DNA of 30,926 bases from Schoenoplectus triqueter (taxonomy: Eukaryota > Streptophyta > Magnoliopsida > Poales > Cyperaceae), in NCBI GenBank assembly GCA_964058805.1, contig CAXKVV010000215.1, forward strand, positions 1-30,926, written 5' to 3'. The position numbers were made by a program, and so were the translations under genes. The notes below the pieces were generated by a model, which was given only the letters and a program-made list of their open reading frames with translations, made no database searches and had not been told where the DNA came from. Below, in pieces: positions 2,557-30,926 of the stretch (within the stretch, counting starts at the first letter, position 1; the number at the start of each line of letters is the position of its first letter).

Positions 2557-3727
2557 TCAACGATAACCATAGAACTGCCTTTTGTAACTGTTGCTTCGGT
2601 TATTCCTCATGGCGCAGCACCCAATGGTGTAAATGAGAGCAAAGAAAACAATGAGGCCTGCATTGAAAATGGCAATTTGCTTCCATTTAGTCTTCAGGGT
2701 TGCAAGGACACCAGCCTTGCATGAATTGCAGTTATAGCACAACTTCTCTTGATCGTTGCTCCACGCCTTGCAATCTGCATCAGCTGATTTTATTCTGGAT
2801 TTTGGTGCTTCCCAGTAGGTTGCATTCACATAATCATAACCACAGTATGTCGGAGGTTTGCAACAGCCAGACTGCATTATCATGAAGATCTATCAAATTT
2901 CAGTACTTACTTTTCTGTAATGATCACAAACCAAGAATTCAATAATGTTTAGGTTGAAAATAACCACAAATCAACAGAGAAAGCTAAGAATTTCAATGAG
3001 GTGATTAAATTTATACGAGCAGCTACAAATAATACTGGTGTTAAAATCTTGTTGGTAATTTTGTGCCCAGAAAGGTACACAGAAGAATTAAAATAGTACA
3101 AATATCAGATTTGAATACGCTTATAATTAACTGGCAAAATCACCATTTTTTAAGAAAAAAGTAAATTCTGGTTGTTTCTGCTTGTGTTATAACAAACAAA
3201 CAAACAAACAAAAAAAAATCTACCTGAGTAGGCGAAAGGTTTTTCTTGTAAAACTCATTAGCGCTCATCAACTCCTTTTCTGTGAAACCATGGCAAACCT
3301 TTGCGCTCTTCAGGCAGCTCTCGATCTTAGACCATGTTCTGTAATTTCCAACCTGTTTCTGAAGCCAGCCAGAATAATCCCCGAGCTGATATTCCTTATA
3401 CCCACGACCTGATACAGCATCTCCAACCCCCTTGTTTGTCACGATAAACACGAAAACTGTCAAAAAGAGCATCACCAGGATCAACAAAAACATGATGAAG
3501 AGGTATATCCAAAGAAAAAAGGAGACGCCGCAGCATGAGCCCATAATTCCCAAAAGAGAGATGACAAGTAGGATGAAGCCGATAATTAACACGGGCCACG
3601 TGAGAAATTTCTCACAGTCTGAATTTGACTGCAGCGAGAAATAGGTGCCGACACCAATCACCACAAGAGAAACTAAGACGATGAGGATATTCAATATAGT
3701 TATTAAGCCGTTGCTTATACGAGCCAT
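2557..3727 (-). CDS. Tetraspanin (plant TET7/8/9-like)
   Basis: Four-pass membrane scaffold protein that organises membrane microdomains; relatives in this plant clade mark extracellular vesicles. Two exons: 3727-3224 (168 codons, ATG at 3727) and 2871-2557 (104 codons plus stop), joined in phase 0 by a GT-AG intron of 352 bp. The predicted product is 272 residues, the usual length for the family. Hydrophobic segments lie at about 8-30, 45-66, 70-97 and 233-255. The large extracellular loop between the third and fourth carries the plant GCCK motif at 170-173, other loop cysteines at 138, 145, 178, 202, 213, 216 and 219, and an N-glycosylation sequon at 184-186. GSCC follows TM2. The short tail ends YGYR. 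The first frame runs through the donor into the intron, so the join rests on the gcag acceptor before TCT-GGC-TGT, which restores SGCCKPP. No defect is visible. Assignment to one Arabidopsis orthologue is not attempted. Confidence 0.95.
2872..3223 (-). other. Intron of the tetraspanin gene
   Basis: Bounded on the minus strand by GTAGAT (donor, just after the CAG codon for Q168) and GCAG (acceptor). It contains an (AAAC)n / poly-A tract at about 3191-3218, close to the donor. Confidence 0.85.
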
Positions 3728-5403: not shown

Positions 5404-5623
5404 AGTTAAATTAAAAAACAAATATTTAAACATAATAAACAAATTAATTAAACTATTAAAACCTATTAAAAATAATAACTAAACAAACAGAAAAAAAAAC
5501 TCGGCCGGACCCAAATTTTGAACTCAGTCCAAGGCCTCGGACCCGAGTTCAAAACTTTGACCAGGCTGGTATCACAAAAGTAGCGGAGATTTTGGCTATT
5601 TTGCTATATTTTTTTATTTACTA
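5404..5623 (-). repeat. Right terminal inverted repeat
   Basis: Inverted partner of 4172-4390. Parts of its inner half recur as imperfect direct repeats just inside the element (about 5183-5262 and 5312-5400; shared words aaacataataaacaaa and actattaaaacctattaaaa), suggesting slippage or unequal exchange within the arm. Confidence 0.8.
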
Positions 5624-6723: not shown

Positions 6724-6938
6724 ATGACTACCGCCTACCGATCAATGGGTAAAACGGTCAATAAATTTATTGAACTCTGACTGGCGCACCTGGTTCCGGC
6801 GTCTTACCCCCAAAGGCCCAAAGTGTCGCATAAACCCCCAACCTCTCTCCTCTGCTCTCCTCCCCTCTTGTTCTTTCCTCTTTCACGCTTCCTGTTACCG
6901 CTCGCTCAGCTTCTCTGCTAGGATTCGCAATCATTGCC
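6724..6938 (+). promoter_or_regulatory. Promoter and 5' UTR of the HSBP-like gene
   Basis: A site II-type element ggccca (reverse of TGGGCC, bound by TCP factors in plant housekeeping promoters) lies at 6815-6820. A pyrimidine-rich leader at about 6841-6895 precedes the ATG at 6939. No TATA box is evident. The site II motif is short and could occur by chance. The hAT-like insertion ends about 215 bp upstream of the ATG. Confidence 0.4.
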
Positions 6939-8727
6939 ATGGAAGTCGACGCGAAGCCAAATCTCAATGCCGAGGTGAGTAAACCTAGCTTCTTGTCTTT
7001 TTTCTTCTCTCCGAACCAGATCTCTAGATCCATTTTTAAGCCTTACCAGTTATAAGCGAAAATTCCTTCTCTGTTAGCTTTCTTCGAACTGTTCGAGGTT
7101 CACGGTTCTACTGTAGCTTTAAAGCATATGGTTATTGGTGTAATGGTATGATCGCAAGTTGGTGATTTTGTTATTTCGTTGTTTTCTCGTAGTTAGTTTG
7201 TGGATTTTGAATTTTATAGGCTAATCCGGATGCGGAGAATTCAAATCAGACAGCTGATGACGTGACCGACTTTGTAAGTTCATGGCGTTAGCAAATTAAT
7301 GCAAAACTTTTCTGAGTAAATTCTATTTTTGATGTTATGGCCTTGCATATTGGTCTCGACTTTGAATTAGGTTCTTAGGTTACTTTAAAACGGGGAAATT
7401 TTCTTGCCTAGCCTTGCCAGCCTAAAAATATTTGTACTTCAAAGTAGGTGGAGGGGTTCTTCTAGATATTTTGCCAAAACTACATTCAATCCCTCTTTTG
7501 TACTGGTGGAAGGATTATTTGAGTATTCATACAAGGAAATATTGTGAGAAAGTGGGTATTGGATTTCTGAGTTTGCCAATGTAGACAAGGTATTAAAGGG
7601 GTAAGAAATTTGTCACTAATTTTGCCATTAATCACCTCTCAACTAGCATCATAGTCTCAAGAGCTTTAATTGCAGTTTCCAAAAATACAGGAATTCACTT
7701 TTGGTTTAATTTAGGGGTTGTTCTGGAAGCTTTTGAAAAACGTATGTTTTTATTTTTATTTTTATTAACTGTGCTTCTTTTCTCCTCCTCAGGTGAAAGA
7801 TCTTCTTCGGAAAATGGTAAATATTTTTATAGATTGATCTTGCTTTGTTATTTTTATCTGTAAAAATCACTGATGAAAATGAATAAATGAATTTTCAGAG
7901 TTGCAATTTTGAGACGCTGGCTGCTGACATACTTTCAAGGAATATCCTTTGAACCGTCCATAATTATTGCTATAGTTTTATATTTACATATACATTTCCA
8001 CTCTCATGAAAGCATCTTCTACTGTTTTGTCTTACCAAAATATCAGCGTCTAAGAAAGAGACATGGTAGCACTGTAGGCACAGTACGGACATGGCACACT
8101 ATCTGAGTCAGGTTTAGCTTACATAATACTGAGTGTGGCAGTATGTTAATATTTGGTACAGTCAGATGTTATATTGTTTTTTTTCTTAACAAATTCTAAC
8201 TAGATGGAGTAGGGAAGAGAGTTAATGAAATTGAAAATTGCCTAAATTCTATAAGAGCTGAGGCAGAAACACAAAATCCAATCAAGCCCATTTCTAATGA
8301 GCTCAAACCTGAAAGCGATGAGGTGAAACCGGAAAGTGAAGAGCAGGAACCCGAACATGCTGAGCCCAAACCTGAAAGCGATGAGCTCATACCTGAAAGT
8401 GATGAGCTCATACCCGAAAGCGACGAGCCCATACCCGAAAGCGACGAGCCCAGACCCGAAAGCGACGAGCCCAGACCCGAAAGCAATGAGCCCAATCCCG
8501 AAAGCGATGAGCCCAAACCCGAAAGCGATGAGCCCAAACCCGAAAGTGGCAGGCCCAATCCTGAAGCTGATGTGCCTGACATTGAATCTGACAAAACCAG
8601 GCATGACTCTGATGAACCCATGCCTGACTGTGATGAACACATGCCTGACTCTGAAGATCCCAAACCCGACTCTGATGTGCCCATGACCAGCTGTGAAGTG
8701 CCCCAGCTTGATCCTGCTTCTGTTTGA
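6939..8727 (+). CDS. HSBP-type coiled-coil protein with long acidic heptad tail
   Basis: Resembles heat shock factor-binding protein, a small trimeric coiled coil that in plants and animals binds heat shock factors and lowers their activity. Five exons: 6939-6974, 7220-7273, 7793-7816, 7899-7941 and 8201-8727 (684 nt, 227 residues). The first three introns are GT-AG. The fourth (7942-8200) is U12 AT-AC; only this join keeps the frame and restores the family's R-I-D core. HSBP core, residues 24-75: TADDVTDFVKDLLRKM, then SCNFETLAADILSRIDG, then VNEIENCLNSIRAE, aligning without gaps to the plant HSBP pattern. The family's usual MSD is replaced by LAA, so this is a diverged member. Plant HSBPs are about 80-90 residues; here residues 89-221 add 19 acidic heptads (consensus PESDEPK). 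Function in HSF control is inferred from the coiled coil only. The tail's role is unknown, and expression would confirm that it is an active gene. Confidence 0.8.
7942..8200 (+). other. U12-type AT-AC intron in the HSBP-like gene
   Basis: The 5' splice site is atatccttt at 7942-7950, a complete match to the U12 AT-AC consensus. A branch-site-like tttcttaac lies at 8182-8190 (consensus TTCCTTRAY, one mismatch), and the intron ends in AC at 8199-8200, about 11 nt past the branch adenosine, within the tight spacing the minor spliceosome needs. No GT donor is available near 7940. Reading through the intron gives a stop after three codons (7950-7952). Confidence 0.88.
8308..8706 (+). repeat. 21-bp coding minisatellite: 19 acidic heptads
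   Basis: Nineteen 7-residue units run without a phase break over residues 89-221. Units in the middle (about 8371-8538) are nearly identical at DNA level (cccgaaagcgacgag plus six variable bases); outer units are more diverged (for example PDSDVPM, TSCEVPQ). This points to expansion from the centre. Composition is rich in Glu, Asp, Pro and Ser, so the tail should be disordered and strongly negative. Confidence 0.92.
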
Positions 8728-9654: not shown

Positions 9655-10708
9655 TCATGAGCACAAAACTCTAACAACAGAAGCCTTCTGTCAATCAGTT
9701 AAATTCTGCAAAGAGGTTTCAAAAAACAAAGCATGAAAATAGGGCACTCAAGGCTAGAGATATCTGCAAATGTAGCTAGTATTACAATAGTGTATGAAGA
9801 TGAGGTGCTAATTTTCCAATAATATAGATATATAGTTGCTAACGGTACTATTATTACCTGGAACAAATAACCAAAAAGGGATCTATCACTCACAGATATA
9901 CTCCTAAAGAAGTTACCCAGATACTCGGTCAACTTTATTTACCATCTTATGTTTGCAGTAGCAGACACTTTTTAATAAGAATGCAAATTGGTTGGCAAAC
10001 CTCACTGAGTGGGTCGGCTTTTGTCAGACCATCGTCATACCCATCATCCTCATCATCCTACACAAATCAAGTACTATTCATTTTACAATTAAAGCATCAA
10101 ACAACAAAAGCAAATTTAAAAGAAAGAATGAAGTAGACTAAAAAGGAAAAAAAACTGCCAAAACAAGACCAGGACTAGAAGCCAGTAAAAGTTATAAACT
10201 GACATCCTCAAGTACTTTACCCATACTCCATAGTATCCAAGCGTTGAACAGATAGATTAGCATTTGATGGCACCATTGATGCATACAGAACCTCATCCCC
10301 TGTGTATGAGATCTCCAAATCACTGTCCTGTCAAACAAAGAAACAAATTAAGAAAATAATTTATATTTATATATAGGAGGGGGAAAAAGCCGAATAACTG
10401 AGTACTGCAATTGACTGCGAGGCAGTTCTGCAATTGACTGCTAGATCAGGTGCCTCGCAGTTGTCGTCCGTTTCTTGTTCAAATATCTCAGACAAAGCAT
10501 CAGCTAAGAGTGAAAATATCTGCAGGAAGCAAGAAAAACTAATTGATATTAAGTAGACTGAGTACTATTTTTGAAAGATGATAAAAAAAGGACAAAAGTT
10601 GATAAACTACAACAAAGTAGTAATGCAATACCTTTGCTGGAAGAGAACCACAGTCCATTGGTCTGGAGCAGACTTGGCTTTTGAGCGCGTTTTAATACCT
10701 CCAGAATT
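9655..10708 (-). pseudogene. Importin-9-like (importin-beta family) 3' fragment
   Basis: Importin-9 is a karyopherin that carries histones and ribosomal proteins into the nucleus. Six former exons remain on the minus strand: 10708-10632 (NSGGIKTRSKAKSAPDQWTV), 10519-about 10406 (IFSLLADALSEIFEQ), 10327-10221 (DSDLEISYTGDEVLY), 10057-10001 (DDEDDGYDDGLTKADPLSE), 9932-9858 (LTEYLGNFFRSISVSDRS) and 9705-9655 (NLTD, stop, QKASVVRVLCS). Order and motifs match the importin-9 C-terminus, including the TRSK...W segment, the acidic stretch, the DPL motif and the final helices. Defects: the first listed exon is 77 nt where 78 is needed, so one base is missing after TVV; a TGA interrupts the last exon at 9693-9691; the phases of the 10221 donor and 10057 acceptor do not agree. 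All upstream exons, most of a protein of about 1000 residues, are absent, replaced by satellite. The donor of the second exon is uncertain because of a local duplication. Confidence 0.85.
10405..10441. repeat. 14-bp duplication in an importin-relic exon
   Basis: ctgcaattgactgc occurs at 10405-10418 and again at 10428-10441. Each copy supplies a candidate splice donor on the minus strand (before 10406 or before 10439), so the exon end is ambiguous; both choices keep the frame. Confidence 0.8.
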
Positions 10709-10782
10709 CTGTACTTCGCATCGTTAATTAAGGCAAAAGAAACCAAGCAAAAAGAAGAGGAGGTATCCTTTACAATAATATA

Positions 10783-11412
10783 TTCAGTTTATTCGAGTTT
10801 TATATCATTTAAAACATCATTTTAACTCATAAAATAAACAAAATATACAAAATTATTTTGAATGACATGTCTTATTCGTTTAAATTATAATCATGATGCT
10901 CTCAAACCATTAAGATACAAATATTATAAAAAGAATAACGTAAATACATTAAAAAGTTATTATGTTTGTTCTAGTTTTTATTATTTGAAATTTCATTTCA
11001 ACTCATAAAATAATCAAACTATACAAAATTATTTTAAATATTATCTCCTATTCATTAACATTATAATTATTATGTTATCGAATCTATGTGTCATGAATAG
11101 GGTTGAATGATTAACACCATTGCACTAAAATAATACTCAGTTTATTCGAGTTTTGTATCTTTTGAATCATCATTTCAACTCATAAAAAAATCAAAATAAA
11201 CAAAATGATTTTAAATAATATTCTCCATTCATTTACATTATAATCGTGATGTTCTCGAACCTTTATGAGATGAATAACGCTAAAATATAAACACAAATGT
11301 ATTAAAATGGTATTTAGTTTATTAGAGTTTTGTATAATTTCAACTCATAAAATCATAAAATCTCCAAAATATACAAAATTATTTTGAATGATATCCTCTA
11401 TTTGACACAAAT
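10783..11412 (+). repeat. Divergent edge monomers of the satellite
   Basis: About 3.6 monomers with gagttt anchors at 10795, 10972 (tagttt), 11148 and 11325. They keep the 176-177 bp spacing but carry many private substitutions, and the 11325 monomer lacks part of the gaagcctcattt segment. They do not match any single HOR position well. The switch to HOR-type sequence falls inside the 11325 monomer, at about 11410, after which it follows HOR monomer 13. Confidence 0.85.
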
Positions 11413-11440
11413 GCATTATAATCATGCTGTTCTCGAACTT

Positions 11441-13693
11441 ATATATGTTAATAATTCCGCCGAATGACACAAACACATTAAAACAATATTCAATTTATTC
11501 GAGTTTTCTATCCCTTGAAGCATCATTTCAACTCAAAAAATAACCAAAATACAGAAATTTGTTTTAAATGACGTCCTCTATTCATTTAGATTATAATTGT
11601 GGTGTTTTTGCACCTTATGAGATGAATAACGTTAAAAGATTAACATAAATGTATTAAAATAGTGTTCAGTTTATTCGAGTTTTGTATCATTTGAAGCCTT
11701 GTTTTAACTTATAAAATAACCAAAATAAACGAGATTATTTTGAATGATATCCCCTATTTATTTCTTTATAATCTTGGTATTCTCTAACCTTTAAGACTAA
11801 AATACAGTGGAAATATTGACACAAATGCATTTAAAAGATATTCAGTTTATTCGAGTTTTGTATCATTTGAGGCCTCATTTCAACTCATAAAATCACCAAA
11901 ATACATATAATTATTTTGAATGTTGTACCATATTATTTTACATTGTAAGTATAGTGTCCCTAAACCTTTAAGACACGAGTAGCTTTGAAATATTAATGCA
12001 AATGTATTAAAATTATATTCAGTTTATTTGAGTTTTCTATAATTTGATGCCTCATTTCAACTCATAAAATAATCGAAAAACATAATATTATTTTAAATGA
12101 TTTCACTATCGTTTGGATTAGAATCGTGGTGTTCTCGAACCATTAATACATGAATAACATTGAAAGATTAACACAAATGCATTAAAAATATATTCTATCT
12201 ATTCGAGTTTTGTATCATTCGAAGTCTCATTTCAGCTCCTAAAATAACCAAAATACACAAAATATTTTGAACGTTGTCCCCAATTCGTTTACTGCATAAT
12301 TATGTTGTTCTTAAACCGCTAAGACATGAATTGCTTTGAAAGATTAAGACAAATAGATTAAAATTAATATTCTTGTTGTTCGGAGTTTTATATTATTTTC
12401 AAGCCTCATTTCAACTCATAAAATAACCAAAATACACAAAACTATTTTGAATGCGTTTAAGACGCGAAAGCATTGAAATATGAACACAAATGCTTTAAAA
12501 CCGTATTCAGTTTACTCGAGTTTTTTCTAATTTGAAGCCTCATTAAAACACAGAAAATAACCATAATACACAACATTATTCTAAATGATCTCCTCTATTC
12601 ATTTACATTAAAATCAAATTATTCTAAAACCTTTATAATATGAATGACATTGAAAAATTAGCACAAATGCATTAAAACGGTATACGATTTATTCGAGTTT
12701 TGTACAATTTGAAGCCTCATTTCAACCCATAAAATAACCAAAATACTCAAAATAATTTTGAATGATGACCCTGATTCGTTTACATTATGATTGTGTTGTT
12801 CCTGACTCTTTAAGACTAGAAAAGTGTTAAAATATTAACACAAATGCATTAATACCGTGTCCAGTTTATTCGAGTTTTGTACAATTTGAAGCCTCATTGA
12901 AACTCATAAAATAACCATAATACGCAAAATTATTTTAAATGATGTCATCTATTCGTTTACATTATAAACTATCTATTCTCGAACCTTTATAACACGAATA
13001 ACTTTGAAAGATTAACACAAATGCATTAAAACGGTATTCAGTTTTTTGAGTTTTTTATCATTTGAAGCCTCACTTCAACTCAAAAAATAACCAACATACA
13101 CAAAATTATTTTGAATGATGTACCCTATTCATTTACCTTATAATTGTGTAGTTCTCGAACCCTTAGCACACGAATAACGTAGAAAGATTAACACAAAGGC
13201 TATAAAATGGTATTCATTATTTTCGAGTTTTGTATTGTTTAAAGCCTCATTTCAACTCATAAAATAACCAAAATATATAAAATTATTTTGAATGAAGTGC
13301 CCTATTCATTTGCATTATAATTCTGGTAGTCTCGATCCTTGGGGACAAAAATAGCATTGAAAGATTATCACACATGCATTAAAATGATATTCAGTTTTTC
13401 CGACTTTTGTATTAATTATAGCATCATTTCAACTCATATAAAAACCAAAACGTACCATATTATTTTCACCGACGTCCCCTATTCATTTACATTATAATTA
13501 CGCTGTTCATGAACCTTTAAGAGACAAATAGCGTAGAATGATTGGCACAAATGCATTAGAACGGTATTCCGTTTATTTCAGTTTTGTTTCATTTGAAGTC
13601 TCATTTAAACTCATAAAATAACCAAAATATACCAAATTATTTTAAATGATGTCCCCTATTCATTTATATTATAATCATGCTGTTCTCGAACTT
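11441..13693 (+). repeat. HOR copy 1 (2253 bp, with a deletion)
   Basis: Copies are counted from the atatatgttaataattcc marker. This copy has all 13 monomers but is 44 bp shorter than the norm; most of the loss is a 42-bp deletion at about 12453, in the sixth monomer, between gaatg and cgtttaagacgcg. Confidence 0.92.
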
Positions 13694-15991
13694 ATATATG
13701 TTAATAATTCCGCCGAATGACACAAACACATTAAAACAATATTCAATTTATTCGAGTTTTCTATCCCTTGAAGCATCATTTCAACTCAAAAAATAACCAA
13801 AATACACAAATTTGTTTTAAATGACGTCCTCTATTCATTTAGATTATAATTGTGGTGTTTTTGCACCTTATGAGATGAATAACGTTAAAAGATTAACACA
13901 AATGTATTAAAATAGTGTTCAGTTTATTCGAGTTTTGTATCATTTGAAGCCTTGTTTTAACTTATAAAATAACCAAAATAAACGAGATTATTTTGAATGA
14001 TATCCCCTATTTATTTCTTTATAATCTTGGTATTCTCTAACCTTTAAGACTAAAATACAGTGGAAATATTGACACAAATGCATTTAAAAGATATTCAGTT
14101 TATTCGAGTTTTGTATCATTTGAGGCCTCATTTCAACTCATAAAATCACCAAAATACATATAATTATTTTGAATGTTGTACCATATTATTTTACATTGTA
14201 AGTATAGTGTCCCTAAACCTTTAAGACACGAGTAGCTTTGAAATATTAATGCAAATGTATTAAAATTATATTCAGTTTATTTGAGTTTTCTATAATTTGA
14301 TGCCTCATTTCAACTCATAAAATAATCGAAATACATAATATTACTTTAAATGATTTCACTATCGTTTGGATTAGAATCGCGGTGTTCTCGAACCATTAAT
14401 ACATGAATAACATTGAAAGATTAACACAAATGCATTAAAAAGGTATTCTATCTATTCGAGTTTTGTATCATTCGAAGTCTCATTTCAGCTCCTAAAATAA
14501 CCAAAATACACAAAATATTTTGAACGTTGTCCCCTATTCGTTTACTGCATAATTATGTTGTTCTTAAACCGCTAAGACATGAATTGCTTTGAAAGATTAA
14601 GACAAATAGATTAAAATTAATATTCTTGTTGTTCGGAGTTTTATATTATTTTCAAGCCTCATTTCAACTCATAAAATAACCAAAATATACAAAACTATTT
14701 TGAATGATGTCCCTGATTCGTTTACACTGTATTTGTGTTGTTCTTGAACGTTTAAGACGCGAAAGCATTGAAATATAAACACAAATGCTTTAAAATCGTA
14801 TTCAGTTTACTCGAGTTTTTTCTAATTTGAAGCCTCATTAAAACACAGAAAATAACCATAATACACAACATTATTCTAAATGATCTCCTCTATTCATTTA
14901 CATTATAATCAAGTTATTCTAAAACCTTTATAATATGAATGACATTGAAAAATTAGCACAAATGCATTAAAACGGTATACGATTTATTCGAGTTTTATAC
15001 AATTTGAAGCCTCATTTCAACCCATAAAATAACCAAAATACTCAAAATAATTTTGAATGATGACCCTGATTCGTTTACATTATGATTGTGTTGTTCCTGA
15101 CTCTTTAAGACTAGAAAAGTGTTAAAATATTAACACAAATGCATTAATACCGTGTCCAGTTTATTCGAGTTTTGTACAATTTGAAGCCTCATTGAAACTC
15201 ATAAAATAACCATAATACGCAAAATTATTTTAAATGATGTCCTCTATTCGTTTACATTATAATCTATCTATTCTCGAACCTTTATAACACGAATAACTTT
15301 GAAAGATTAACACAAATGCATTAAAACGGTATTCAGTTTATTTGAGTTTTTTATCATTTGAAACCTCACTTCAACTCAAAAAATAACCAACATACACAAA
15401 ATTATTTTGAATGATGTACCCTATTCATTTACCTTATAATTGTGTAGTTCTCGAACCCTTAGCACACGAATAACGTAGAAAGATTAACACAAAGGCTATA
15501 AAATGGTATTCATTATTTTCGAGTTTTGTATTGTGTTTCAAGCCTCATTTCAACTCATAAAATAACCAAAATATATAAAATTATTTTGAATGAATTGCCC
15601 TATTCGTTTGCATTATAATTCTGGTAGTCTCGATCCTTGGGGACAAAAATAGCATTGAAAGATTATCACACATGCATTAAAATGATATTCAGTTTTTTCG
15701 ACTTTTTTATTAATTATAGCATCATTTCAACTCATATAAAAACCAAAACGTACCATATTATTTTCACCGACGTCCCCTATTCATTTACATTATAATTACG
15801 CTGTTCCCGAACCTTTAAGAGACAAATAGCGTAAAATGATTGGCACAAATGCATTAGAACGGTATTCCGTTTATTTCAGTTTTGTTTCATTTGAAGTCTC
15901 ATTTAAACTCATAAAATAACCAAAATACACCAAATTATTTTAAATGATGTCCCCTATTCATTTATATTATAATCATGCTGTTCTCGAACTT
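13694..15991 (+). repeat. HOR copy 2 (2298 bp)
   Basis: Monomer anchors (gagttt or equivalent) at 13754, 13930, 14106, 14283, 14458, 14636, 14813, 14990, 15167, 15344, 15521, 15700 and 15877; the next copy's first anchor is 16052. This gives 13 monomers of 175-179 bp. It has the tattgtgtttc variant in monomer 11. Confidence 0.95.
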
Positions 15992-18287
15992 ATATATGTT
16001 AATAATTCCGCCGAATGACACAAACGCATTAAAACAATATTCAATTTATTCGAGTTTTCTATCCCTTGAAGCATCATTTGAACTCAAAAAATAACCAAAA
16101 TACACAAATTTGTTTTAAATGACGTCCTCTATTCATTTAGATCATAATTGTGGTGTTTTTGCACCCTTATGAGATGAATAACGTTAAAAGATTAACATAA
16201 ATGTATTAAAATAGTATTCAGTTTATTCGAGTTTTGTATCATTTGAAGCCTTGTTTTAACTTATAAAATAACCAAAATAAACGAGATTATTTTGAATGAT
16301 ATCCTCTATTTATTTCTTTATAACTTGGTATTCTCTAACCTTTAAGACTAAAATACAGTGGAAATATTGACACAAATGCATTTAAAAGATATTCAGTTTA
16401 TTCGAGTTTTGTATCATTTGAGGCCTAATTTCAACTCATAAAATCACCAAAATACATATAATTATTTTGAATGTTGTACCATATTATTTTACATTGTAAG
16501 TATAGTGTCCCTAAACCTTTAAGACACGAGTAGCTTTGAAATATTAATGCAAATGTATTAAAATTATATTCAGTTTATTTGAGTTTTCTATAATTTGATG
16601 CCTCATTTCAACTCATAAAATAATCGAAGTACATAATATTATTTTAAATGATTTCACTATCGTTTGGATTAGGATCGCGGTGTTCTCGAACCATTAATAC
16701 ATGAATAACATTGAAAGATTAACACAAATGCATTAAAAAGGTATTCTATCTATTCGAGTTTTGTATCATTCGAAGTCTCATTTCAGCTCCTAAAATAACA
16801 AAAATACACAAAATATTTTGAACTTTGTCCCCTATTCGTTTACTGCATAATTATTTTGTTCTTAAACCGCTAAGACATGAATTGCTTTGAAAGATTAAGA
16901 CAAATAGATTAAAATTAATATTCTTGTTGTTCGGAGTTTTATATTATTTTCAAGCCTCATTTCAACTCATAAAATAACCAAAATATACAAAACTATTTTG
17001 AATGATGTCCCTGATTCGTTTACATTGTATTTGTGTTGTTCTTGAACGTTTAAGACGCGAAAGCATTGAAATATAAACACAAATGCTTTAAAACCGTATT
17101 CAGTTTACTCGAGTTTTTTCTAATTTGAAGCCTCATTAAAACACAGAAAATAACCATAATACACAACACTATTCTAAATGATCTCCTCTATTCATTTACA
17201 TTATAATCAAGTTATTCTAAAACCTTTATAATATGAATGACATTGAAAAATTAACACAAATGCATTAAAACGGTATACGATTTATTCGAGTTTTGTACAA
17301 TTTGAAGCCTCATTTCAACCCATAAAATAACCAAAATACTCAAAATAATTTTGAATGATGACCCTGATTCGTTTACATTATGATTGTGTTGTTCCTGACT
17401 CTTTAAGACTAGAAAAGTGTTAAAATATTAACACACATGCATTAATACCGTGTCCTGTTTATTTGAGTTTTGTACAATTTGAAGCCTCATTGAAACTCAT
17501 AAAATAACCATAATACGCAAAATTATTTTAAATGATGTCCTCTATTCGTTTACATTATAAACTATCTATTCTCGAACCTTTATAACACGAATAACTTTGA
17601 AAGATTAACACAAATGCATTAAAACGGTATTCAGTTTATTTGAGTTTTTTATCATTTGAAGCCTCACTTCAACTCAAAAAATAACCAACATACACAAAAT
17701 TATTTTGAATGATGTACCCTATTCATTTACCTTATAATTGTGTAGTTCTCGAACCCTTAGCACACGAATAACGTAGAAAGATTAACACAAAGGCTATAAA
17801 ATGGTATTCATTATTTTCGAGTTTTGTATTGTTTCAAGCCTCATTTCAACTCATAAAATAACCAAAATATATAAAATTATTTTGAATGAAGTGCCCTATT
17901 CGTTTGCATTATAATTCTGGTAGTCCCGATCCTTGGGGACAAAAATAGCATTGAAAGATTATCACACATGCATTAAAATGATATTCAGTTTTTTCGACTT
18001 TTGTATTAATTATAGCATCATTTCAACTCATATAAAAACCAAAACGTACCATATTATTTTCACCGACGTCCCCTATTCATTTACATTATAATTACGCTGT
18101 TCCCGAACCTTTAAGAGACAAATAGCATAAAATGATTGGCACAAATGCATTAGAACGGTATTCCGTTTATTTCAGTTTTGTTTCATTTGAAGTCTCATTT
18201 AAATTCATAAAATAACCAAAATACACCAAATTATTTTAAATGATGTCCCCTATTCATTTATATTATAATCATGCTGTTCTCGAACTT
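15992..18287 (+). repeat. HOR copy 3 (2296 bp)
   Basis: Same 13-monomer order. First copy with the attattttgttc variant in monomer 5 and tcgaagtacat in monomer 4, both shared by copies 4-8. Confidence 0.95.
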
Positions 18288-20586
18288 ATATATGTTAATA
18301 ATTCCGCCGAATGACACAAACGCATTAAAACAATATTCAATTTATTCGAGTTTTCTATCCCTTGAAGCATCATTTGAACTCAAAAAATAACCAAAATACA
18401 CAAATTTGTTTTAAATGACGTCCTCTATTCATTTAGATCATAATTGTGGTGTTTTTGCACCCTTATGAGATGAATAACGTTAAAAGATTAACACAAATGT
18501 ATTAAAATAGTATTCAGTTTATTCGAGTTTTGTATCATTTGAAGCCATGTTTTAACTTATAAAATAACCAAAATAAACGAGATTATTTTGAATGATATCC
18601 CCTATTTATTTCTTTATAATCTTGGTATTCTCTAACCTTTAAGACTAAAATACAGTGGAAATATTGACACAAATGCATTTAAAAGATATTCAGTTTATTC
18701 GAGTTTTGTATCATTTGAGGCCTCATTTCAACTCATAAAATCACCAAAATACATATAATTATTTTGAATGTTGTACCATATTATTTTACATTGTAAGTAT
18801 AGTGTCCCTAAACCTTTAAGACACGAGTAGCTTTGAAATATTAATGCAAATGTATTAAAATTATATTCAGTTTATTTGAGTTTTCTATAATTTGATGCCT
18901 CATTTCAACTCATAAAATAATCGAAGTACATAATATTATTTTAAATGATTTCACTATCATTTGGATTAGAATCGCGGTGTTCTCGAACCATTAATACAAG
19001 AATAACATTGAAAGATTAACACAAATGCATTAAAAAGGTATTCTATCTATTCGAGTTTTGTATCATTCGAAGTCTCATTTCAGCTCCTAAAATAACCAAA
19101 ATACACAAAATATTTTGAACGTTGTCCCCTATTCGTTTACTGCATAATTATTTTGTTCTTAAACCGCTAAGACATGAATTGCTTTGAAAGATTAAGACAA
19201 ATAGATTAAAATTAATATTCTTGTTGTTCGGAGTTTTATATTATTTTCAAGCCTCATTTCAACTCATAAAATAATCAAAATACACAAAACTATTTTGAAT
19301 GATGTCCCTGATTCGTTTACATTGTATTTGTGTTGTTCTTGAACGTTTAAGACGCGAAAGCATTGAAATATAAACACAAATGCTTTAAAACCGTATTCAG
19401 TTTACTCGAGTTTTTTCTAATTTGAAGCCTCATTAAAACACAGAAAATAACCATAATACACAACACTATTCTAAATGATCTCCTCTATTCATTTACATTA
19501 TAATCAAGTTATTCTAAAACCTTTATAATATGAATGACATTGAAAAATTAACACAAATGCATTAAAACGGTATACAATTTATTCGAGTTTTGTACAATTT
19601 GAAGCCTCATTTCAACCCATAAAATAACCAAAATACACAAAATAATTTTGAATGATGACCCTGATTCGTTTACATTATGATTGTGTTGTTCCTGACTCTT
19701 TAAGACTAGAAAAGTGTTAAAATATTAACACAAATGCATTAATACCGTGTCCAGTTTATTCGAGTTTTGTACAATTTGAAGCCTCATTGAAACTCATAAA
19801 ATAACCATAATACGTAAAATTATTTTAAATGATGTCCTCTATTCGTTTACATTATAAACTATCTATTCTCGAACCTTTATAACACGAATAACTTTGAAAG
19901 ATTAACACAAATGCATTAAAACGGTATTCAGTTTATTTGAGTTTTTTATCATTTGAAGCCTCACTTCAACTCAAAAAATAACCAACATACACAAAATTAT
20001 TTTGAATGATGTACCCTATTCAATTACCTTATAATTGTGTAGTTCTCGAACCCTTAGCACACGAATAACGTAGAAAGATTAACACAAAGGCTATAAAATG
20101 GTATTCATTATTTTCGAGTTTTGTATTGTGTTTCAAGCCTCATTTCAACTCATAAAATAACCAAAATATATAAAATTATTTTGAATGAAGTGCCCTATTC
20201 GTTTGCATTATAATTCTGGTAGTCCCGATCCTTGGGGACAAAAATAGCATTGAAAGATTATCACACATGCATTAAAATGATATTCAGTTTTTTCGACTTT
20301 TGTATTAATTATAGCATCATTTCAACTCATATAAAAACCAAAACGTACCATATTATTTTCACCGGCGTCCCCTATTCATTTACATTATAATTACGCTGTT
20401 CCCGAACCTTTAAGAGACAAATAGCATAAAATGATTGGCACAAATGCATTAGAACGGTATTCCGTTTATTTCAGTTTTGTTTCATTTGAAGTCTCATTTA
20501 AACTCATAAAATAACCAAAATACACCAAATTATTTTAAATGATGTACCCTATTCATTTATATTATAATCATGCTGTTCTCGAACTT
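18288..20586 (+). repeat. HOR copy 4 (2299 bp)
   Basis: Same order. Carries the taatcaaaat variant in monomer 6 at about 19272, shared with copies 6 and 8, and the 2-nt longer monomer 11 shared with copy 2. Confidence 0.95.
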
Positions 20587-23500
20587 ATATATGTTAATAA
20601 TTCCGTCGAATGACACAAACGCATTTAAACAATATTCAATTTATTCGAGTTTTCTATCCCTTGAAGCATCATTTCAACTCGAAAAATAACCAAAATACAC
20701 AAATTTGTTTTAAATGACGTCCTCTATTCATTTAGATCATAATTGTGGTGTTTTTGCACCCTTATGAGATGAATAACGTTAAAAGATTAACACAAATGTA
20801 TTAAAATAGTATTCAGTTTATTCGAGTTTTGTATCATTTGAAGCCTTGTTTTAACTTATAAAATAACCAAAATAAACGAGATTATTTTGAATGATATCCC
20901 CTATTTATTTCTTTATAATCTTGGTATTCTCTAACCTTTAAGACTAAAATACAGTGGAAATATTGACACAAATGCATTTAAAAGATATTCAGTTTATTCG
21001 AGTTTTGTATCATTTGAGGCCTCATTTCAACTCATAAAATCACCAAAATACATATAATTATTTTGAATGTTGTACCATATTATTTTACATTGTAAGTATA
21101 GTGTCCCTAAACCTTTAAGACACGAGTAGCTTTGAAATATTAATGCAAATGTATTAAAATTATATTCAGTTTATTTGAGTTTTCTATAATTTGATGCCTC
21201 ATTTCAACTCATAAAATAATCGAAGTACATAATATTATTTTAAATGATTTCACTATCGTTTGGATTAGAATCGCGGTGTTCTCGAACCATTAATACATGA
21301 ATAACATTGAAAGATTAACACAAATGCATTAAAAAGGTATTCTATCTATTCGAGTTTTGTATCATTCGAAGTCTCATTTCAGCTCCTAAAATAACCAAAA
21401 TACACAAAATATTTTGAACGTTGTCCCCTATTCGTTTACTGCATAATTATTTTGTTCTTAAACCGCTAAGACATGAATTGCTTTGAAAGATTAAGACAAA
21501 TAGATTAAAATTAATATTCTTGTTGTTCGGAGTTTTATATTATTTTCAAGCCTCATTTCAACTCATAAAATAACCAAAATACACAAAACTATTTTGAATG
21601 ATGTCCCTGATTCGTTTACATTGTATTTGTGTTGTTCTTGAACGTTTAAGACGCGAAAGCATTGAAATATAAACACAAATGCTTTAAAACCGTATTCAGT
21701 TTACTCGAGTTTTTTCTAATTTGAAGCCTCATTAAAACACAGAAAATAACCATAATACACAACACTATTCTAAATGATCTCCTCTATTCATTTACATTAT
21801 AATCAAGTTATTCTAAAACCTTTATAATATGAATGACATTGAAAAATTAACACAAATGCATTAAAACGGTATACGATTTATTCGAGTTTTGTACAATTTG
21901 AAGCCTCATTTCAACCCATAAAATAACCAAAATACTCAAAATAATTTTGAATGATGACCCTGATTCGTTTACATTATGATTGTGTTGTTCCTGACTCTTT
22001 AAGACTAGAAAAGTGTTAAAATATTAACACAAATGCATTAATACCGTGTCCAGTTTATTCGAGTTTTGTACAATTTGAAGCCTCATTGAAACTCATAAAA
22101 TAACCATAATACGCAAAATTATTTTAAATGATGTCCTCTATTCGTTTACATTATAAACTATCTATTCTCGAACCTTTATAACACGAATAACTTTGAAAGA
22201 TTAACACAAATGCATTAAAACGGTATTCAGTTTATTTGAGTTTTTTATCATTTGAAGCCTCACTTCAACTCAAAAAATAACCAACATACACAAAATTATT
22301 TTGAATGATGTACCCTATTCATTTACCTTATAATTGTGTAGTTCTCGAACCCTTAGCACACGAATAACGTAGAAAGATTAACACAAAGGCTATAAAATGG
22401 TATTCATTATTTTCGAGTTTTGTATTGTTTCAAGCCTCATTTCAACTCATAAAATAACCAAAATATATAAAATTATTTTGAATGAAGTGCCCTATTCGTT
22501 TGCATTATAATTCTGGTAGTCCCGATCCTTGGGGACAAAAATAGCATTGAAAGATTATCACACATGCATTAAAATGATATTCAGTTTTTTCGACTTTTGT
22601 ATTAATTATAGCATCATTTCAACTCATATAAAATCCAAAACGTACCATATTATTTTCACCGGCGTCCCCTATTCATTTACATTATAATTACGCTGTTCCC
22701 GAACCTTTAAGAGACAAATAGCATAAAATGATTGGCACAAATGCATTAGAACGGTATTCCGTTTATTTCAGTTTTGTTTCATTTGAAGTCTCATTTAAAC
22801 TCATAAAATAACCAAAATACACCAAATTATTTTAAATGATGTCCCCTATTCATTTATATTATAATCATGCTGTTCTCGAACTTATATATGTTAATAATTC
22901 CGCCGAATGACACAAACGCATTAAAACAATATTCAATTTATTCGAGTTTTCTATCCCTTGAAGCATCATTTCAACTCGAAAAATAACCAAAATACACAAA
23001 TTTGTTTTAAATGACGTCCTCTATTCATTTAGATCATAATTGTGGTGTTTTTGCACCCTTATGAGATGAATAACGTTAAAAGATTAACACAAATGTATTA
23101 AAATAGTATTCAGTTTATTCGAGTTTTGTATCATTTGAAGCCTTGTTTTAACTTATAAAATAACCAAAATAAACGAGATTATTTTGAATGATATCCCCTA
23201 TTTATTTCTTTATAATCTTGGTATTCTCTAACCTTTAAGACTAAAATACAGTGGAAATATTGACACAAATGCATTTAAAAGATATTCAGTTTATTCGAGT
23301 TTTGTATCATTTGAGGCCTCATTTCAACTCATAAAATCACCAAAATACATATAATTATTTTGAATGTTGTACCATATTATTTTACATTGTAAGTATAGTG
23401 TCCCTAAACCTTTAAGACACGAGTAGCTTTGAAATATTAATGCAAATGTATTAAAATTATATTCAGTTTATTTGAGTTTTCTATAATTTGATGCCTCATT

Positions 23501-25180
23501 TCAACTCATAAAATAATCGAAGTACATAATATTATTTTAAATGATTTCACTATCGTTTGGATTAGAATCGCGGTGTTCTCGAACCATTAATACATGAATA
23601 ACATTGAAAGATTAACACAAATGCATTAAAAAGGTATTCTATCTATTCGAGTTTTGTATCATTCGAAGTCTCATTTCAGCTCCTAAAATAACCAAAATAC
23701 ACAAAATATTTTGAACGTTGTCCCCTATTCGTTTACTGCATAATTATTTTGTTCTTAAACCGCTAAGACATGAATTGCTTTGAAAGATTAAGACAAATAG
23801 ATTAAAATTAATATTCTTGTTGTTCGGAGTTTTATATTATTTTCAAGCCTCATTTCAACTCATAAAATAATCAAAATACACAAAACTATTTTGAATGATG
23901 TCCCTGATTCGTTTACATTGTATTTGTGTTGTTCTTGAACGTTTAAGACGCGAAAGCATTGAAATATAAACACAAATGCTTTAAAACCGTATTCAGTTTA
24001 CTCGAGTTTTTTCTAATTTGAAGCCTCATTAAAACACAGAAAATAACCATAATACACAACACTATTCTAAATGATCTCCTCTATTCATTTACATTATAAT
24101 CAAGTTATTCTAAAACCTTTATAATATGAATGAAATTGAAAAATTAACACAAATGCATTAAAACGGTATACGATTTATTCGAGTTTTGTACAATTTGAAG
24201 CCTCATTTCAACCCATAAAATAACCAAAATACTCAAAATAATTTTGAATGATGACCCTGATTCGTTTACATTATGATTGTGTTGTTCCTGACTCTTTAAG
24301 ACTAGAAAAGTGTTAAAATATTAACACAGATGCATTAATACCGTGTCCAGTTTATTCGAGTTTTGTACAATTTGAAGCCTCATTGAAACTCATAAAATAA
24401 CCATAATACGCAAAATTATTTTAAATGATGTCCTCTATTCGTTTACATTATAAACTATCTATTCTCGAACCTTTATAACACGAATAACTTTGAAAGATTA
24501 ACACAAATGCATTAAAACGGTATTCAGTTTATTTGAGTTTTTTATCATTTGAAGCCTCACTTCAACTCAAAAAATAACCAACATACACAAAATTATTTTG
24601 AATGATGTACCCTATTCATTTACCTTATAATTGTGTAGTTCTCGAACCCTTAGCACACGAATAACGTAGAAAGATTAACACAAAGGCTATAAAATGGTAT
24701 TCATTATTTTCGAGTTTTGTATTGTTTCAAGCCTCATTTCAACTCATAAAATAACCAAAATATATAAAATTATTTTGAATGAAGTGCCCTATTCGTTTGC
24801 ATTATAATTCTGGTAGTCCCGATCCTTGGGGACAAAAATAGCATTGAAAGATTATCACACATGCATTAAAATGATATTCAGTTTTTTCGACTTTTGTATT
24901 AATTATAGCATCATTTCAACTCATATAAAAACCAAAACGTACCATATTATTTTCACCGGCGTCCCCTATTCATTTACATTATAATTACGCTGTTCCCGAA
25001 CCTTTAAGAGACAAATAGCATAAAATGATTGGCACAAATGCATTAGAACGGTATTCCGTTTATTTCAGTTTTGTTTCATTTGAAGTCTCATTTAAACTCA
25101 TAAAATAACCAAAATACACCAAATTATTTTAAATGATGTCCCCTATTCATTTATATTATAATCATGCTGTTCTCGAACTT
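20587..25180 (+). repeat. HOR copies 5 and 6: one 26-monomer dimer (4594 bp)
   Basis: Copy 5 is 20587-22883 and copy 6 is 22884-25180, each 2297 bp. Copy 5 has catttaaac at about 20622 and a T at 22634; copy 6 has gaatgaaatt at about 24128 and a G at 24329. Each of these recurs exactly 4594 bp later. Confidence 0.9.
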
Positions 25181-28100
25181 ATATATGTTAATAATTCCGC
25201 CGAATGACACAAACGCATTTAAACAATATTCAATTTATTCGAGTTTTCTATCCCTTGAAGCATCATTTCAACTCGAAAAATAACCAAAATACACAAATTT
25301 GTTTTAAATGACGTCCTCTATTCATTTAGATCATAATTGTGGTGTTTTTGCACCCTTATGAGATGAATAACGTTAAAAGATTAACACAAATGTATTAAAA
25401 TAGTATTCAGTTTATTCGAGTTTTGTATCATTTGAAGCCTTGTTTTAACTTATAAAATAACCAAAATAAACGAGATTATTTTGAATGATATCCCCTATTT
25501 ATTTCTTTATAATCTTGGTATTCTCTAACCTTTAAGACTAAAATACAGTGGAAATATTGACACAAATGCATTTAAAAGATATTCAGTTTATTCGAGTTTT
25601 GTATCATTTGAGGCCTCATTTCAACTCATAAAATCACCAAAATACATATAATTATTTTGAATGTTGTACCATATTATTTTACATTGTAAGTATAGTGTCC
25701 CTAAACCTTTAAGACACGAGTAGCTTTGAAATATTAATGCAAATGTATTAAAATTATATTCAGTTTATTTGAGTTTTCTATAATTTGATGCCTCATTTCA
25801 ACTCATAAAATAATCGAAGTACATAATATTATTTTAAATGATTTCACTATCGTTTGGATTAGAATCGCGGTGTTCTCGAACCATTAATACATGAATAACA
25901 TTGAAAGATTAACACAAATGCATTAAAAAGGTATTCTATCTATTCGAGTTTTGTATCATTCGAAGTCTCATTTCAGCTCCTAAAATAACCAAAATACACA
26001 AAATATTTTGAACGTTGTCCCCTATTCGTTTACTGCATAATTATTTTGTTCTTAAACCGCTAAGACATGAATTGCTTTGAAAGATTAAGACAAATAGATT
26101 AAAATTAATATTCTTGTTGTTCGGAGTTTTATATTATTTTCAAGCCTCATTTCAACTCATAAAATAACCAAAATACACAAAACTATTTTGAATGATGTCC
26201 CTGATTCGTTTACATTGTATTTGTGTTGTTCTTGAACGTTTAAGACGCGAAAGCATTGAAATATAAACACAAATGCTTTAAAACCGTATTCAGTTTACTC
26301 GAGTTTTTTCTAATTTGAAGCCTCATTAAAACACAGAAAATAACCATAATACACAACACTATTCTAAATGATCTCCTCTATTCATTTACATTATAATCAA
26401 GTTATTCTAAAACCTTTATAATATGAATGACATTGAAAAATTAACACAAATGCATTAAAACGGTATACGATTTATTCGAGTTTTGTACAATTTGAAGCCT
26501 CATTTCAACCCATAAAATAACCAAAATACTCAAAATAATTTTGAATGATGACCCTGATTCGTTTACATTATGATTGTGTTGTTCCTGACTCTTTAAGACT
26601 AGAAAAGTGTTAAAATATTAACACAAATGCATTAATACCGTGTCCAGTTTATTCGAGTTTTGTACAATTTGAAGCCTCATTGAAACTCATAAAATAACCA
26701 TAATACGCAAAATTATTTTAAATGATGTCCTCTATTCGTTTACATTATAAACTATCTATTCTCGAACCTTTATAACACGAATAACTTTGAAAGATTAACA
26801 CAAATGCATTAAAACGGTATTCAGTTTATTTGAGTTTTTTATCATTTGAAGCCTCACTTCAACTCAAAAAATAACCAACATACACAAAATTATTTTGAAT
26901 GATGTACCCTATTCATTTACCTTATAATTGTGTAGTTCTCGAACCCTTAGCACACGAATAACGTAGAAAGATTAACACAAAGGCTATAAAATGGTATTCA
27001 TTATTTTCGAGTTTTGTATTGTTTCAAGCCTCATTTCAACTCATAAAATAACCAAAATATATAAAATTATTTTGAATGAAGTGCCCTATTCGTTTGCATT
27101 ATAATTCTGGTAGTCCCGATCCTTGGGGACAAAAATAGCATTGAAAGATTATCACACATGCATTAAAATGATATTCAGTTTTTTCGACTTTTGTATTAAT
27201 TATAGCATCATTTCAACTCATATAAAATCCAAAACGTACCATATTATTTTCACCGGCGTCCCCTATTCATTTACATTATAATTACGCTGTTCCCGAACCT
27301 TTAAGAGACAAATAGCATAAAATGATTGGCACAAATGCATTAGAACGGTATTCCGTTTATTTCAGTTTTGTTTCATTTGAAGTCTCATTTAAACTCATAA
27401 AATAACCAAAATACACCAAATTATTTTAAATGATGTCCCCTATTCATTTATATTATAATCATGCTGTTCTCGAACTTATATATGTTAATAATTCCGCCGA
27501 ATGACACAAACGCATTAAAACAATATTCAATTTATTCGAGTTTTCTATCCCTTGAAGCATCATTTCAACTCGAAAAATAACCAAAATACACAAATTTGTT
27601 TTAAATGACGTCCTCTATTCATTTAGATCATAATTGTGGTGTTTTTGCACCCTTATGAGATGAATAACGTTAAAAGATTAACACAAATGTATTAAAATAG
27701 TATTCAGTTTATTCGAGTTTTGTATCATTTGAAGCCTTGTTTTAACTTATAAAATAACCAAAATAAACGAGATTATTTTGAATGATATCCCCTATTTATT
27801 TCTTTATAATCTTGGTATTCTCTAACCTTTAAGACTAAAATACAGTGGAAATATTGACACAAATGCATTTAAAAGATATTCAGTTTATTCGAGTTTTGTA
27901 TCATTTGAGGCCTCATTTCAACTCATAAAATCACCAAAATACATATAATTATTTTGAATGTTGTACCATATTATTTTACATTGTAAGTATAGTGTCCCTA
28001 AACCTTTAAGACACGAGTAGCTTTGAAATATTAATGCAAATGTATTAAAATTATATTCAGTTTATTTGAGTTTTCTATAATTTGATGCCTCATTTCAACT

Positions 28101-29774
28101 CATAAAATAATCGAAGTACATAATATTATTTTAAATGATTTCACTATCGTTTGGATTAGAATCGCGGTGTTCTCGAACCATTAATACATGAATAACATTG
28201 AAAGATTAACACAAATGCATTAAAAAGGTATTCTATCTATTCGAGTTTTGTATCATTCGAAGTCTCATTTCAGCTCCTAAAATAACCAAAATACACAAAA
28301 TATTTTGAACGTTGTCCCCTATTCGTTTACTGCATAATTATTTTGTTCTTAAACCGCTAAGACATGAATTGCTTTGAAAGATTAAGACAAATAGATTAAA
28401 ATTAATATTCTTGTTGTTCGGAGTTTTATATTATTTTCAAGCCTCATTTCAACTCATAAAATAATCAAAATACACAAAACTATTTTGAATGATGTCCCTG
28501 ATTCGTTTACATTGTATTTGTGTTGTTCTTGAACGTTTAAGACGCGAAAGCATTGAAATATAAACACAAATGCTTTAAAACCGTATTCAGTTTACTCGAG
28601 TTTTTTCTAATTTGAAGCCTCATTAAAACACAGAAAATAACCATAATACACAACACTATTCTAAATGATCTCCTCTATTCATTTACATTATAATCAAGTT
28701 ATTCTAAAACCTTTATAATATGAATGAAATTGAAAAATTAACACAAATGCATTAAAACGGTATACGATTTATTCGAGTTTTGTACAATTTGAAGCCTCAT
28801 TTCAACCCATAAAATAACCAAAATACTCAAAATAATTTTGAATGATGACCCTGATTCGTTTACATTATGATTGTGTTGTTCCTGACTCTTTAAGACTAGA
28901 AAAGTGTTAAAATATTAACACAGATGCATTAATACCGTGTCCAGTTTATTCGAGTTTTGTACAATTTGAAGCCTCATTGAAACTCATAAAATAACCATAA
29001 TACGCAAAATTATTTTAAATGATGTCCTCTATTCGTTTACATTATAAACTATCTATTCTCGAACCTTTATAACACGAATAACTTTGAAAGATTAACACAA
29101 ATGCATTAAAACGGTATTCAGTTTATTTGAGTTTTTTATCATTTGAAGCCTCACTTCAACTCAAAAAATAACCAACATACACAAAATTATTTTGAATGAT
29201 GTACCCTATTCATTTACCTTATAATTGTGTAGTTCTCGAACCCTTAGCACACGAATAACGTAGAAAGATTAACACAAAGGCTATAAAATGGTATTCATTA
29301 TTTTCGAGTTTTGTATTGTTTCAAGCCTCATTTCAACTCATAAAATAACCAAAATATATAAAATTATTTTGAATGAAGTGCCCTATTCGTTTGCATTATA
29401 ATTCTGGTAGTCCCGATCCTTGGGGACAAAAATAGCATTGAAAGATTATCACACATGCATTAAAATGATATTCAGTTTTTTCGACTTTTGTATTAATTAT
29501 AGCATCATTTCAACTCATATAAAAACCAAAACGTACCATATTATTTTCACCGGCGTCCCCTATTCATTTACATTATAATTACGCTGTTCCCGAACCTTTA
29601 AGAGACAAATAGCATAAAATGATTGGCACAAATGCATTAGAACGGTATTCCGTTTATTTCAGTTTTGTTTCATTTGAAGTCTCATTTAAACTCATAAAAT
29701 AACCAAAATACACCAAATTATTTTAAATGATGTCCCCTATTCATTTATATTATAATCATGCTGTTCTCGAACTT
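25181..29774 (+). repeat. HOR copies 7 and 8: second 26-monomer dimer (4594 bp)
   Basis: Copy 7 is 25181-27477 and copy 8 is 27478-29774, each 2297 bp. Copy 7 repeats the copy 5 variants (catttaaac near 25216, T at 27228) and copy 8 repeats those of copy 6 (gaatgaaatt near 28722, G at 28923). Confidence 0.9.
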
Positions 29775-30926
29775 ATATATGTTAATAATTCCGCCGAATG
29801 ACACAAACGCATTTAAACAATATTCAATTTATTCGAGTTTTCTATCCCTTGAAGCATCATTTCAACTCGAAAAATAACCAAAATACACAAATTTGTTTTA
29901 AATGACGTCCTCTATTCATTTAGATCATAATTGTGGTGTTTTTGCACCCTTATGAGATGAATAACGTTAAAAGATTAACACAAATGTATTAAAATAGTAT
30001 TCAGTTTATTCGAGTTTTGTATCATTTGAAGCCTTGTTTTAACTTATAAAATAACCAAAATAAACGAGATTATTTTGAATGATATCCCCTATTTATTTCT
30101 TTATAATCTTGGTATTCTCTAACCTTTAAGACTAAAATACAGTGGAAATATTGACACAAATGCATTTAAAAGATATTCAGTTTATTCGAGTTTTGTATCA
30201 TTTGAGGCCTCATTTCAACTCATAAAATCACCAAAATACATATAATTATTTTGAATGTTGTACCATATTATTTTACATTGTAAGTATAGTGTCCCTAAAC
30301 CTTTAAGACACGAGTAGCTTTGAAATATTAATGCAAATGTATTAAAATTATATTCAGTTTATTTGAGTTTTCTATAATTTGATGCCTCATTTCAACTCAT
30401 AAAATAATCGAAATACATAATATTATTTTAAATGATTTCACTATCGTTTGGATTAGAATCGCGGTGTTCTCGAACCATTAATACATGAATAACATTGAAA
30501 GATTAACACAAATGCATTAAAAAGGTATTCTATCTATTCGAGTTTTGTATCATTCGAAGTCTCATTTCAGCTCCTAAAATAACCAAAATACACAAAATAT
30601 TTTGAACGTTGTCCCCTATTCGTTTACTGCATAATTATGTTGTTCTTAAACCGCTAAGACATGAATTGCTTTGAAAGATTAAGACAAATAGATTAAAATT
30701 AATATTCTTGTTGTTCGGAGTTTTATATTATTTTCAAGCCTCATTTCAACTCATAAAATAACCAAAATACACAAAACTATTTTGAATGATGTCCCTGATT
30801 CGTTTACATTGTATTTGTGTTGTTCTTGAACGTTTAAGATGCGAAAGCATTGAAATATAAACACAAATGCTTAAAAACCGTATTCAGTGTACTCGAGTTT
30901 TTTCTAATTTGAAGCCTCATTAAAAC
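29775..30926 (+). repeat. HOR copy 9 (partial, cut by window end)
   Basis: The first 1152 bp of a unit, ending in monomer 7. It begins like copies 5 and 7 (catttaaac near 29811) but in monomers 4 and 5 has variants otherwise found at the left edge (tcgaaatacat near 30409, attatgttgttc near 30634), plus private changes near 30840-30893. Confidence 0.9.

Follow-up and report, generated by a model that had tools for sequence, protein, structure and literature searches.

A 13-monomer higher-order repeat of 2,297 bp at one locus of a dispersed ~177-bp plant satellite

Introduction

Long and regular higher-order repeats (HORs), in which diverged satellite monomers recur in a fixed order as near-identical units, are best known from large single centromeres, and sedges (Cyperaceae) are known for diffuse centromeres. 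Here, a 13-monomer HOR was analysed in a stretch of 30,926 nucleotides (the window), very probably from a sedge. The window forms contig C210 of an assembly that comprises 2,086 contigs and 82.09 Mb.

That plants can have HORs is established. Among 171 species with Sanger data, drawn from both plants and animals, 76 had clear HORs, and switchgrass has a six-monomer HOR unit of 1,131 bp (PMC4053949). An HOR of Arabidopsis CEN2 is annotated as R18L8, which we take to mean 8 monomers in 18 copies (PMC10053651), and soybean CentGm-4 forms HORs of one to four monomers that vary by chromosome (PMC11447526). With these reports (PMC4053949, PMC10053651, PMC11447526), the view expressed in a first-pass annotation of the window, that plant satellites show little or irregular HOR structure, is less well supported, although it is still a fair one for Papaver and Arabidopsis, in which HOR lengths are reported to follow a negative exponential distribution (PMC11406182).

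Sedges have been described as holocentric (PMC7533669). The 172-bp satellite Tyba of Rhynchospora forms CENH3-bearing arrays of ~18 kb spaced ~374 kb apart in R. breviuscula (PMC10954556) and arrays of 15-25 kb, in 448-727 units per chromosome, in R. pubera (PMC10264360), and in sedges Tyba arrays are interspersed with genes (PMC10954556, PMC10264360, PMC11538461). The large satellites of Carex have periods of 29-31 bp and no similarity to Tyba (PMC9526063); therefore, sedges need not share one repeat.

Results

The window array is a 13-monomer HOR

The 18-base marker ATATATGTTAATAATTCC was matched exactly at nine places in the window (11441, 13694, 15992, 18288, 20587, 22884, 25181, 27478 and 29775), with spacings of 2253, 2298, 2296, 2299, 2297, 2297, 2297 and 2297 bp, which reproduced exactly the places and spacings given in the first-pass annotation; the chance expectation at up to three mismatches is 0.24. 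When positions 12457-30926 were compared with themselves without gaps, the highest identity was found at a shift of 2297 (0.741), followed by 4594 (0.665), 6893 (0.578) and 177 (0.570). A monomer model returned 115 matches from 10777 to 30926, all on the plus strand and in a single block, and the mean identity of monomers 13 steps apart (lag 13) was 0.983, against 0.748-0.765 for lags 1-12.

The monomer clustering that had been proposed as a check (greedy, at 93% identity, using 114 of the 115 monomers, with one shorter than 120 bp omitted) gave the order ABCD, then E to Q eight times, then E to J. Thus, 13 types follow each other in one fixed order, no irregular order was seen, and the clean 13-mer said to be repeated more than eight times corresponds to eight complete rounds and a partial ninth. 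Inside unit 6, pairwise monomer identity was 0.70-0.82, with a mean of 0.75. With monomers diverged within a unit (70-82% identity) and near-identical units (98% at lag 13) in a fixed order, the window array is a 13-monomer HOR, in the sense in which the term had been applied to it. The start at 11441 given earlier holds for the HOR, whereas the array itself begins at 10777, with four monomers that stand outside the 13-step order and whose best identity to any monomer of the 13-mer is 0.77-0.83.

The units are nearly identical overall, as had been stated, but unevenly so. The edge unit 1, which is short (2,253 bp) because it carries a deletion of ~44 bp, differs from the full units 2-8 at 26-38 sites, and mismatches among the inner units 5-8 number 0-6. 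Between units 5 and 7 there is a single difference and between units 6 and 8 none, which gives a two-unit period of 4,594 bp, and an exact self-repeat of 5,212 bp lies within the window array. Private variants and indels were found in units 1-4.

The array continues on a second contig and belongs to one locus

Positions 14105-30926 of the window (plus strand) correspond exactly, over 16,822 bp and from contig end to contig end, to positions 43684-26863 of C1086, which extends the array beyond the window by 26,862 bp. Positions 16,001-43,684 of C1086 were read as sequence (16001-26862 being continuation) and positions 1-16,000 were followed by marker positions only; at 26001-43684, lag-13 identity was 0.995. 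That C1086 might be the opposite end of the array was ruled out by the exact dovetail, which identifies it as an overlapping continuation.

A 34-base marker, searched with up to three mismatches in the whole assembly, gave 28 matches, nine on C210 and 19 on C1086 (seven of these in the overlap), and none elsewhere, so that the proposed mapping to the full assembly returned only these two contigs. Jointly they carry 21 units with the marker, the last of which is incomplete because C1086 ends there, in an array of at least 47 kb that is open on one side. The 13-mer is thus confined to one locus of this assembly, which may be incomplete, since a histone-fold search gave 11 matches.

On C1086, four adjacent units of 2,299 bp (25717 to 18820) show 0-2 differences from one another, with two of them identical, and a C/T variant of the marker alternates from unit to unit towards the far end of the contig, with T four times consecutively elsewhere. 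Together with the two-unit period of the window, these patterns show that blocks of one unit and of two units were copied. Such copying could result from unequal exchange or break-induced replication, following the model in PMC8997354, and we infer that one or the other may have acted here.

The collapse or misassembly that had been considered as a danger was not seen: several units carry private variants and the two contigs agree over 16.8 kb, although both may share the same reads. C503 (35,113 bp) overlaps window positions 1-6,639 in a similar way, as compared at 6,001-6,639 (100%) and in short pieces at both ends. C503, C210 and C1086 are adjoining contigs left unmerged, with long exact end overlaps of 6,639 and 16,822 bp.

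Other loci of the satellite carry other HORs or none

The satellite was found on at least 31 contigs, 24 of them by alignment (the window included), C62, C247 and C649 by reading, and four (C2084, C841, C1990 and C644) by pattern matches only. A 12-mer HOR of 2,147 bp is present on C62 (lag-12 identity 1.000), on C213 (0.994) and on C247, the last with shortened 10-monomer variants, and its marker gave 30 matches in the assembly, only on these three contigs. A 9-mer HOR of 1,660 bp was detected on C649 (identity 0.998 in the 3.5 kb read), where a run of 16 intervals, each exactly 1,660 bp, occurs among 18 marker matches, and a 16-mer HOR of 2,863 bp on C407, with a lag-16 identity of 0.939 over only ~1.8 copies. 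Diverged monomers are found at the array edges in the window, C62 and C247. The flanks of these three arrays showed no mutual similarity at E 1e-5, and C62 and C247 could be the two ends of a single array.

At positions 475-21974 of C62, 11 places of the 12-mer marker are spaced exactly 2,147 bp apart, and the 3,353 bases that were read and could be compared are identical throughout. This uniform 12-mer represents either a very recent amplification or an assembly loop.

In the 12-mer and the 16-mer, monomers two apart are more similar than neighbours. In a monomer tree from which monomers shorter than 140 bp were excluded, their A and B types formed two clades, with 14 of 14 monomers each (support 0.992 and 0.965). 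Judged by mean identity, the 9-mer has the pattern A A B A B A B A B, which is mostly alternating, with two A monomers consecutive. The 13-mer showed no A/B alternation, and 11 of its 13 monomers formed one clade with one edge monomer (support 0.951).

No lag peak was detected in the stretches fetched from C325, C894, C1506, C2057, C1419, C384 and C79. The array of C1887 is short and irregular, and that of C1038 has a segmental repeat of ~37-41 monomers and two insertions of ~6.2 kb. In one C1038 insertion (L013 4534-7512), a 993-residue frame matched retrotransposon gag and aspartic protease, with no match to reverse transcriptase. The large arrays of the satellite lie on short contigs, and small ones of 1-5 kb lie inside contigs of 0.75 and 1.49 Mb.

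When a conserved block was sought as a possible binding site, the best 17-column window was equalled in 208 of 1000 permutations for the 13-mer, in 53 for A, in 21 for B and in 0 for the monomeric set. Gap columns make up part of the best window in A and in the monomeric set, and no inference was drawn from any of these figures.

Comparison with described HORs

The arrays resemble primate alpha-satellite HORs in the fixed order of diverged monomers, the near-identical units, the locus-dependent unit length and the diverged edges, and the A/B alternation of the 12-mer and 16-mer, and for the most part of the 9-mer, is similar to that of the primate A/B suprachromosomal families. They differ from alpha satellite in that the 13-mer has no such alternation and its array adjoins predicted genes, and kinship in sequence is not claimed. 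Local HORs such as R18L8 in CEN2 are a point in common with Arabidopsis CEN178 and Papaver (PMC10053651), in which HOR lengths are reported to fall exponentially (PMC11406182), whereas here one long unit dominates each sampled HOR array. As here, HOR structure differs between chromosomes in soybean CentGm-4 (PMC11447526), but with one to four monomers of ~413 bp instead of 9-16 monomers of ~177-186 bp.

The literature searched yielded no sedge with HORs of 9 to 16 monomers specific to single loci, a weak absence as two main Tyba papers lay outside its coverage, and six 17-20-base pieces of the satellite were not found there either. HORs in Tyba were likewise not found in that literature, with the same limit of coverage.

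Probable placement in a sedge and comparison with Tyba

Homologues of the tetraspanin encoded in the window (best 120 of 605) include proteins of Rhynchospora tenuis (83%), Carex rostrata (79%), Juncus effusus (64%) and Typha latifolia (62%), after which pineapple, banana and oil palm follow among the matches listed; an alignment to one metagenome protein spans 62% of the query at 95% identity. This homology places the locus very probably in a sedge, other than R. tenuis and C. rostrata, and speaks against an origin in a eudicot.

The satellite resembles Tyba in its monomer length (~177 vs 172 bp), its AT-richness, its probable occurrence in the sedge family and its arrays of tens of kb among genes. 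The printed Tyba sequences compared were two primers (PMC5049389). The reverse primer agreed with the B-type consensus at 16 of 17 bases, which 7 of 1000 shuffles equalled, and the match of the forward primer lies immediately beside it (45 of 2000 shuffles for both jointly); in an earlier test of eight pairings, the lowest values were 8, 12 and 18 of 300 shuffles. Common descent with Tyba is possible, and these matches are no more than suggestive of it.

Discussion

Proposed HOR amplification in a probable centromeric satellite

The account that we favour, with little more than even confidence, is that HORs were amplified locus by locus in a probable centromeric satellite, of which the array would be one centromere unit. 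The array is one locus of a dispersed, AT-rich, ~177-bp satellite, very probably in a sedge. At this locus, 13 diverged monomers came to be amplified together as one block, presumably by unequal exchange or by break-induced replication inside the array, to give 21 or more near-identical 2,297-bp units and a decayed edge. Elsewhere the satellite amplified other blocks (12-, 16- and 9-mers, mainly on A/B monomer pairs), and further arrays are free of HORs. The array may then act as a seat of CENH3 and, if the plant is holocentric like other sedges, as one of many centromere units. Arrays of a 177-bp satellite that measure tens of kb and lie near a predicted gene, with small arrays inside contigs, would fit a repeat-based holocentromere unit. 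As the organism looks like a sedge, the comparison with a single localised centromere may not apply.

Several points weigh against this account. The placement in a sedge depends on a single gene, the tetraspanin. The forward Tyba primer matched no better than chance (360 of 1000 shuffles equal), a further Tyba oligonucleotide, of which no printed copy was found, was unsupported (562 of 1000 shuffles as good), and kinship with Tyba is thus not established. Within long contigs, the arrays measure 1-5 kb and have no HORs, so that they do not demonstrate a regular spacing of large arrays. The CENP-B box TTCGN4AN2CGGG had 0 matches in the window, HORs occur in satellite arrays without CENH3 too (PMC12046899), and for Scirpus, a genus of sedges, there are reports of monocentric chromosomes (PMC11583847).

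A more far-reaching version of the favoured account, which we advance tentatively and expect to fail sooner than to hold, is that in a holocentric sedge each small centromere unit amplifies its own long HOR (of 9, 12, 13 or 16 monomers, A/B-based or not), in an alpha-satellite-like evolution that proceeds separately in many tens-of-kb units among genes. If gene-flanked sedge arrays of tens of kb do each carry their own HOR, the formation of HORs would need no megabase centromere, and one genome would offer many natural replicates of centromere-repeat evolution. The copying mechanism, and a preference of CENH3 for the homogenised core or the diverged edge, would then be directly testable. The interest would rise if CENH3 sits on the arrays.

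Were the plant monocentric, each HOR array would be the core of a single centromere, specific to its chromosome, and the HOR-free arrays that contain retrotransposons would be pericentromeric, as in human alpha satellite. The report from Scirpus agrees with this, as does the resemblance to the human layout (PMC8997354) of HOR cores with diverged edges and HOR-free arrays, one of them with insertions of a long terminal repeat (LTR) element, but we consider it unlikely in a family described as holocentric (PMC7533669), with an array 2 kb from a predicted gene instead of in a repeat-rich border, and with a satellite on at least 31 contigs that is also found inside those of 0.75 and 1.49 Mb.

It is similarly improbable that the satellite is non-centromeric, a heterochromatic block or subtelomeric array with local HORs and no role at the kinetochore. 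Plant arrays outside centromeres can form HORs (PMC12046899), but the telomeric motif (TTTAGGG)3 was present in none of the 33 satellite loci examined. The best 100 of 372 matches to (TTTAGGG)4 all fell on C2051 and C2067, with no satellite contig among those listed, in a list apparently sorted by mismatch and then by contig number, an order that would exclude exact matches on lower-numbered contigs.

That a loop in the repeat graph made or multiplied the regular units is very improbable, for all that the identical units 6 and 8, the nearly identical units 5 and 7, the exact 5,212-bp self-repeat, the invariant 2,147-bp spacing on C62 and the contigs left overlapping might suggest it, as units 1-4 have their private variants and indels, further C1086 units differ as well, the overlap of 16.8 kb exceeds the exact repeat in length, and the distinct units show the 13-mer even if some copies were spurious.

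Flanking genes and other features of the window

The coordinates of the array and of the predicted genes are collected in Table 1. The array starts 2 kb beyond the end of the predicted HSBP1-like gene.

Table 1. Satellite array and predicted genes in the window.
Feature	Position	Strand	Basis and remarks
Satellite array, ~177-bp monomers	10777..30926	+	115 monomer matches, one block; leaves contig at right end
Four edge monomers, outside 13-step order	10777..11440	+	Clusters A-D, one occurrence each
HOR unit 1, 2,253 bp	11441..13693	+	Marker and monomer positions
HOR units 2-8, 2,296-2,299 bp, 13 monomers each	13694..29774	+	Marker spacing, clustering
HOR unit 9, 1,152 bp, truncated by contig end	29775..30926	+	Marker position
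Predicted tetraspanin gene, two exons, 272 aa, no internal stop	2557..3727	-	Exons set by eye; Pfam PF00335, E 1.3e-34
Predicted HSBP1-like gene, repetitive acidic tail	6939..8727	+	Exons joined by hand; Pfam PF06825, E 2.5e-10

The tail of the HSBP1-like gene is made of in-frame 21-bp tandem repeats (8297-8685), predicted to encode an acidic seven-residue repeat. Close to the start of the array, exon-like frames lie on the minus strand at ~9950-10750, with a 5' side that would face the array; they matched no Pfam family, and no homologue was found at E values up to 1.

An element at 4161-5634 looks like a non-autonomous DNA transposon: its terminal inverted repeats of ~232 bp are 87% identical in reverse complement, and no long open frame was noted in it. 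Interrupted frames at ~550-1480 resemble, as judged by eye, the relic of an F-box protein gene. Finally, positions 6299-6715 hold a dispersed repeat of ~415 bp; when 40 of 964 candidates were scored, 38 of 42 rows were copies on other contigs, at 85-90% identity.

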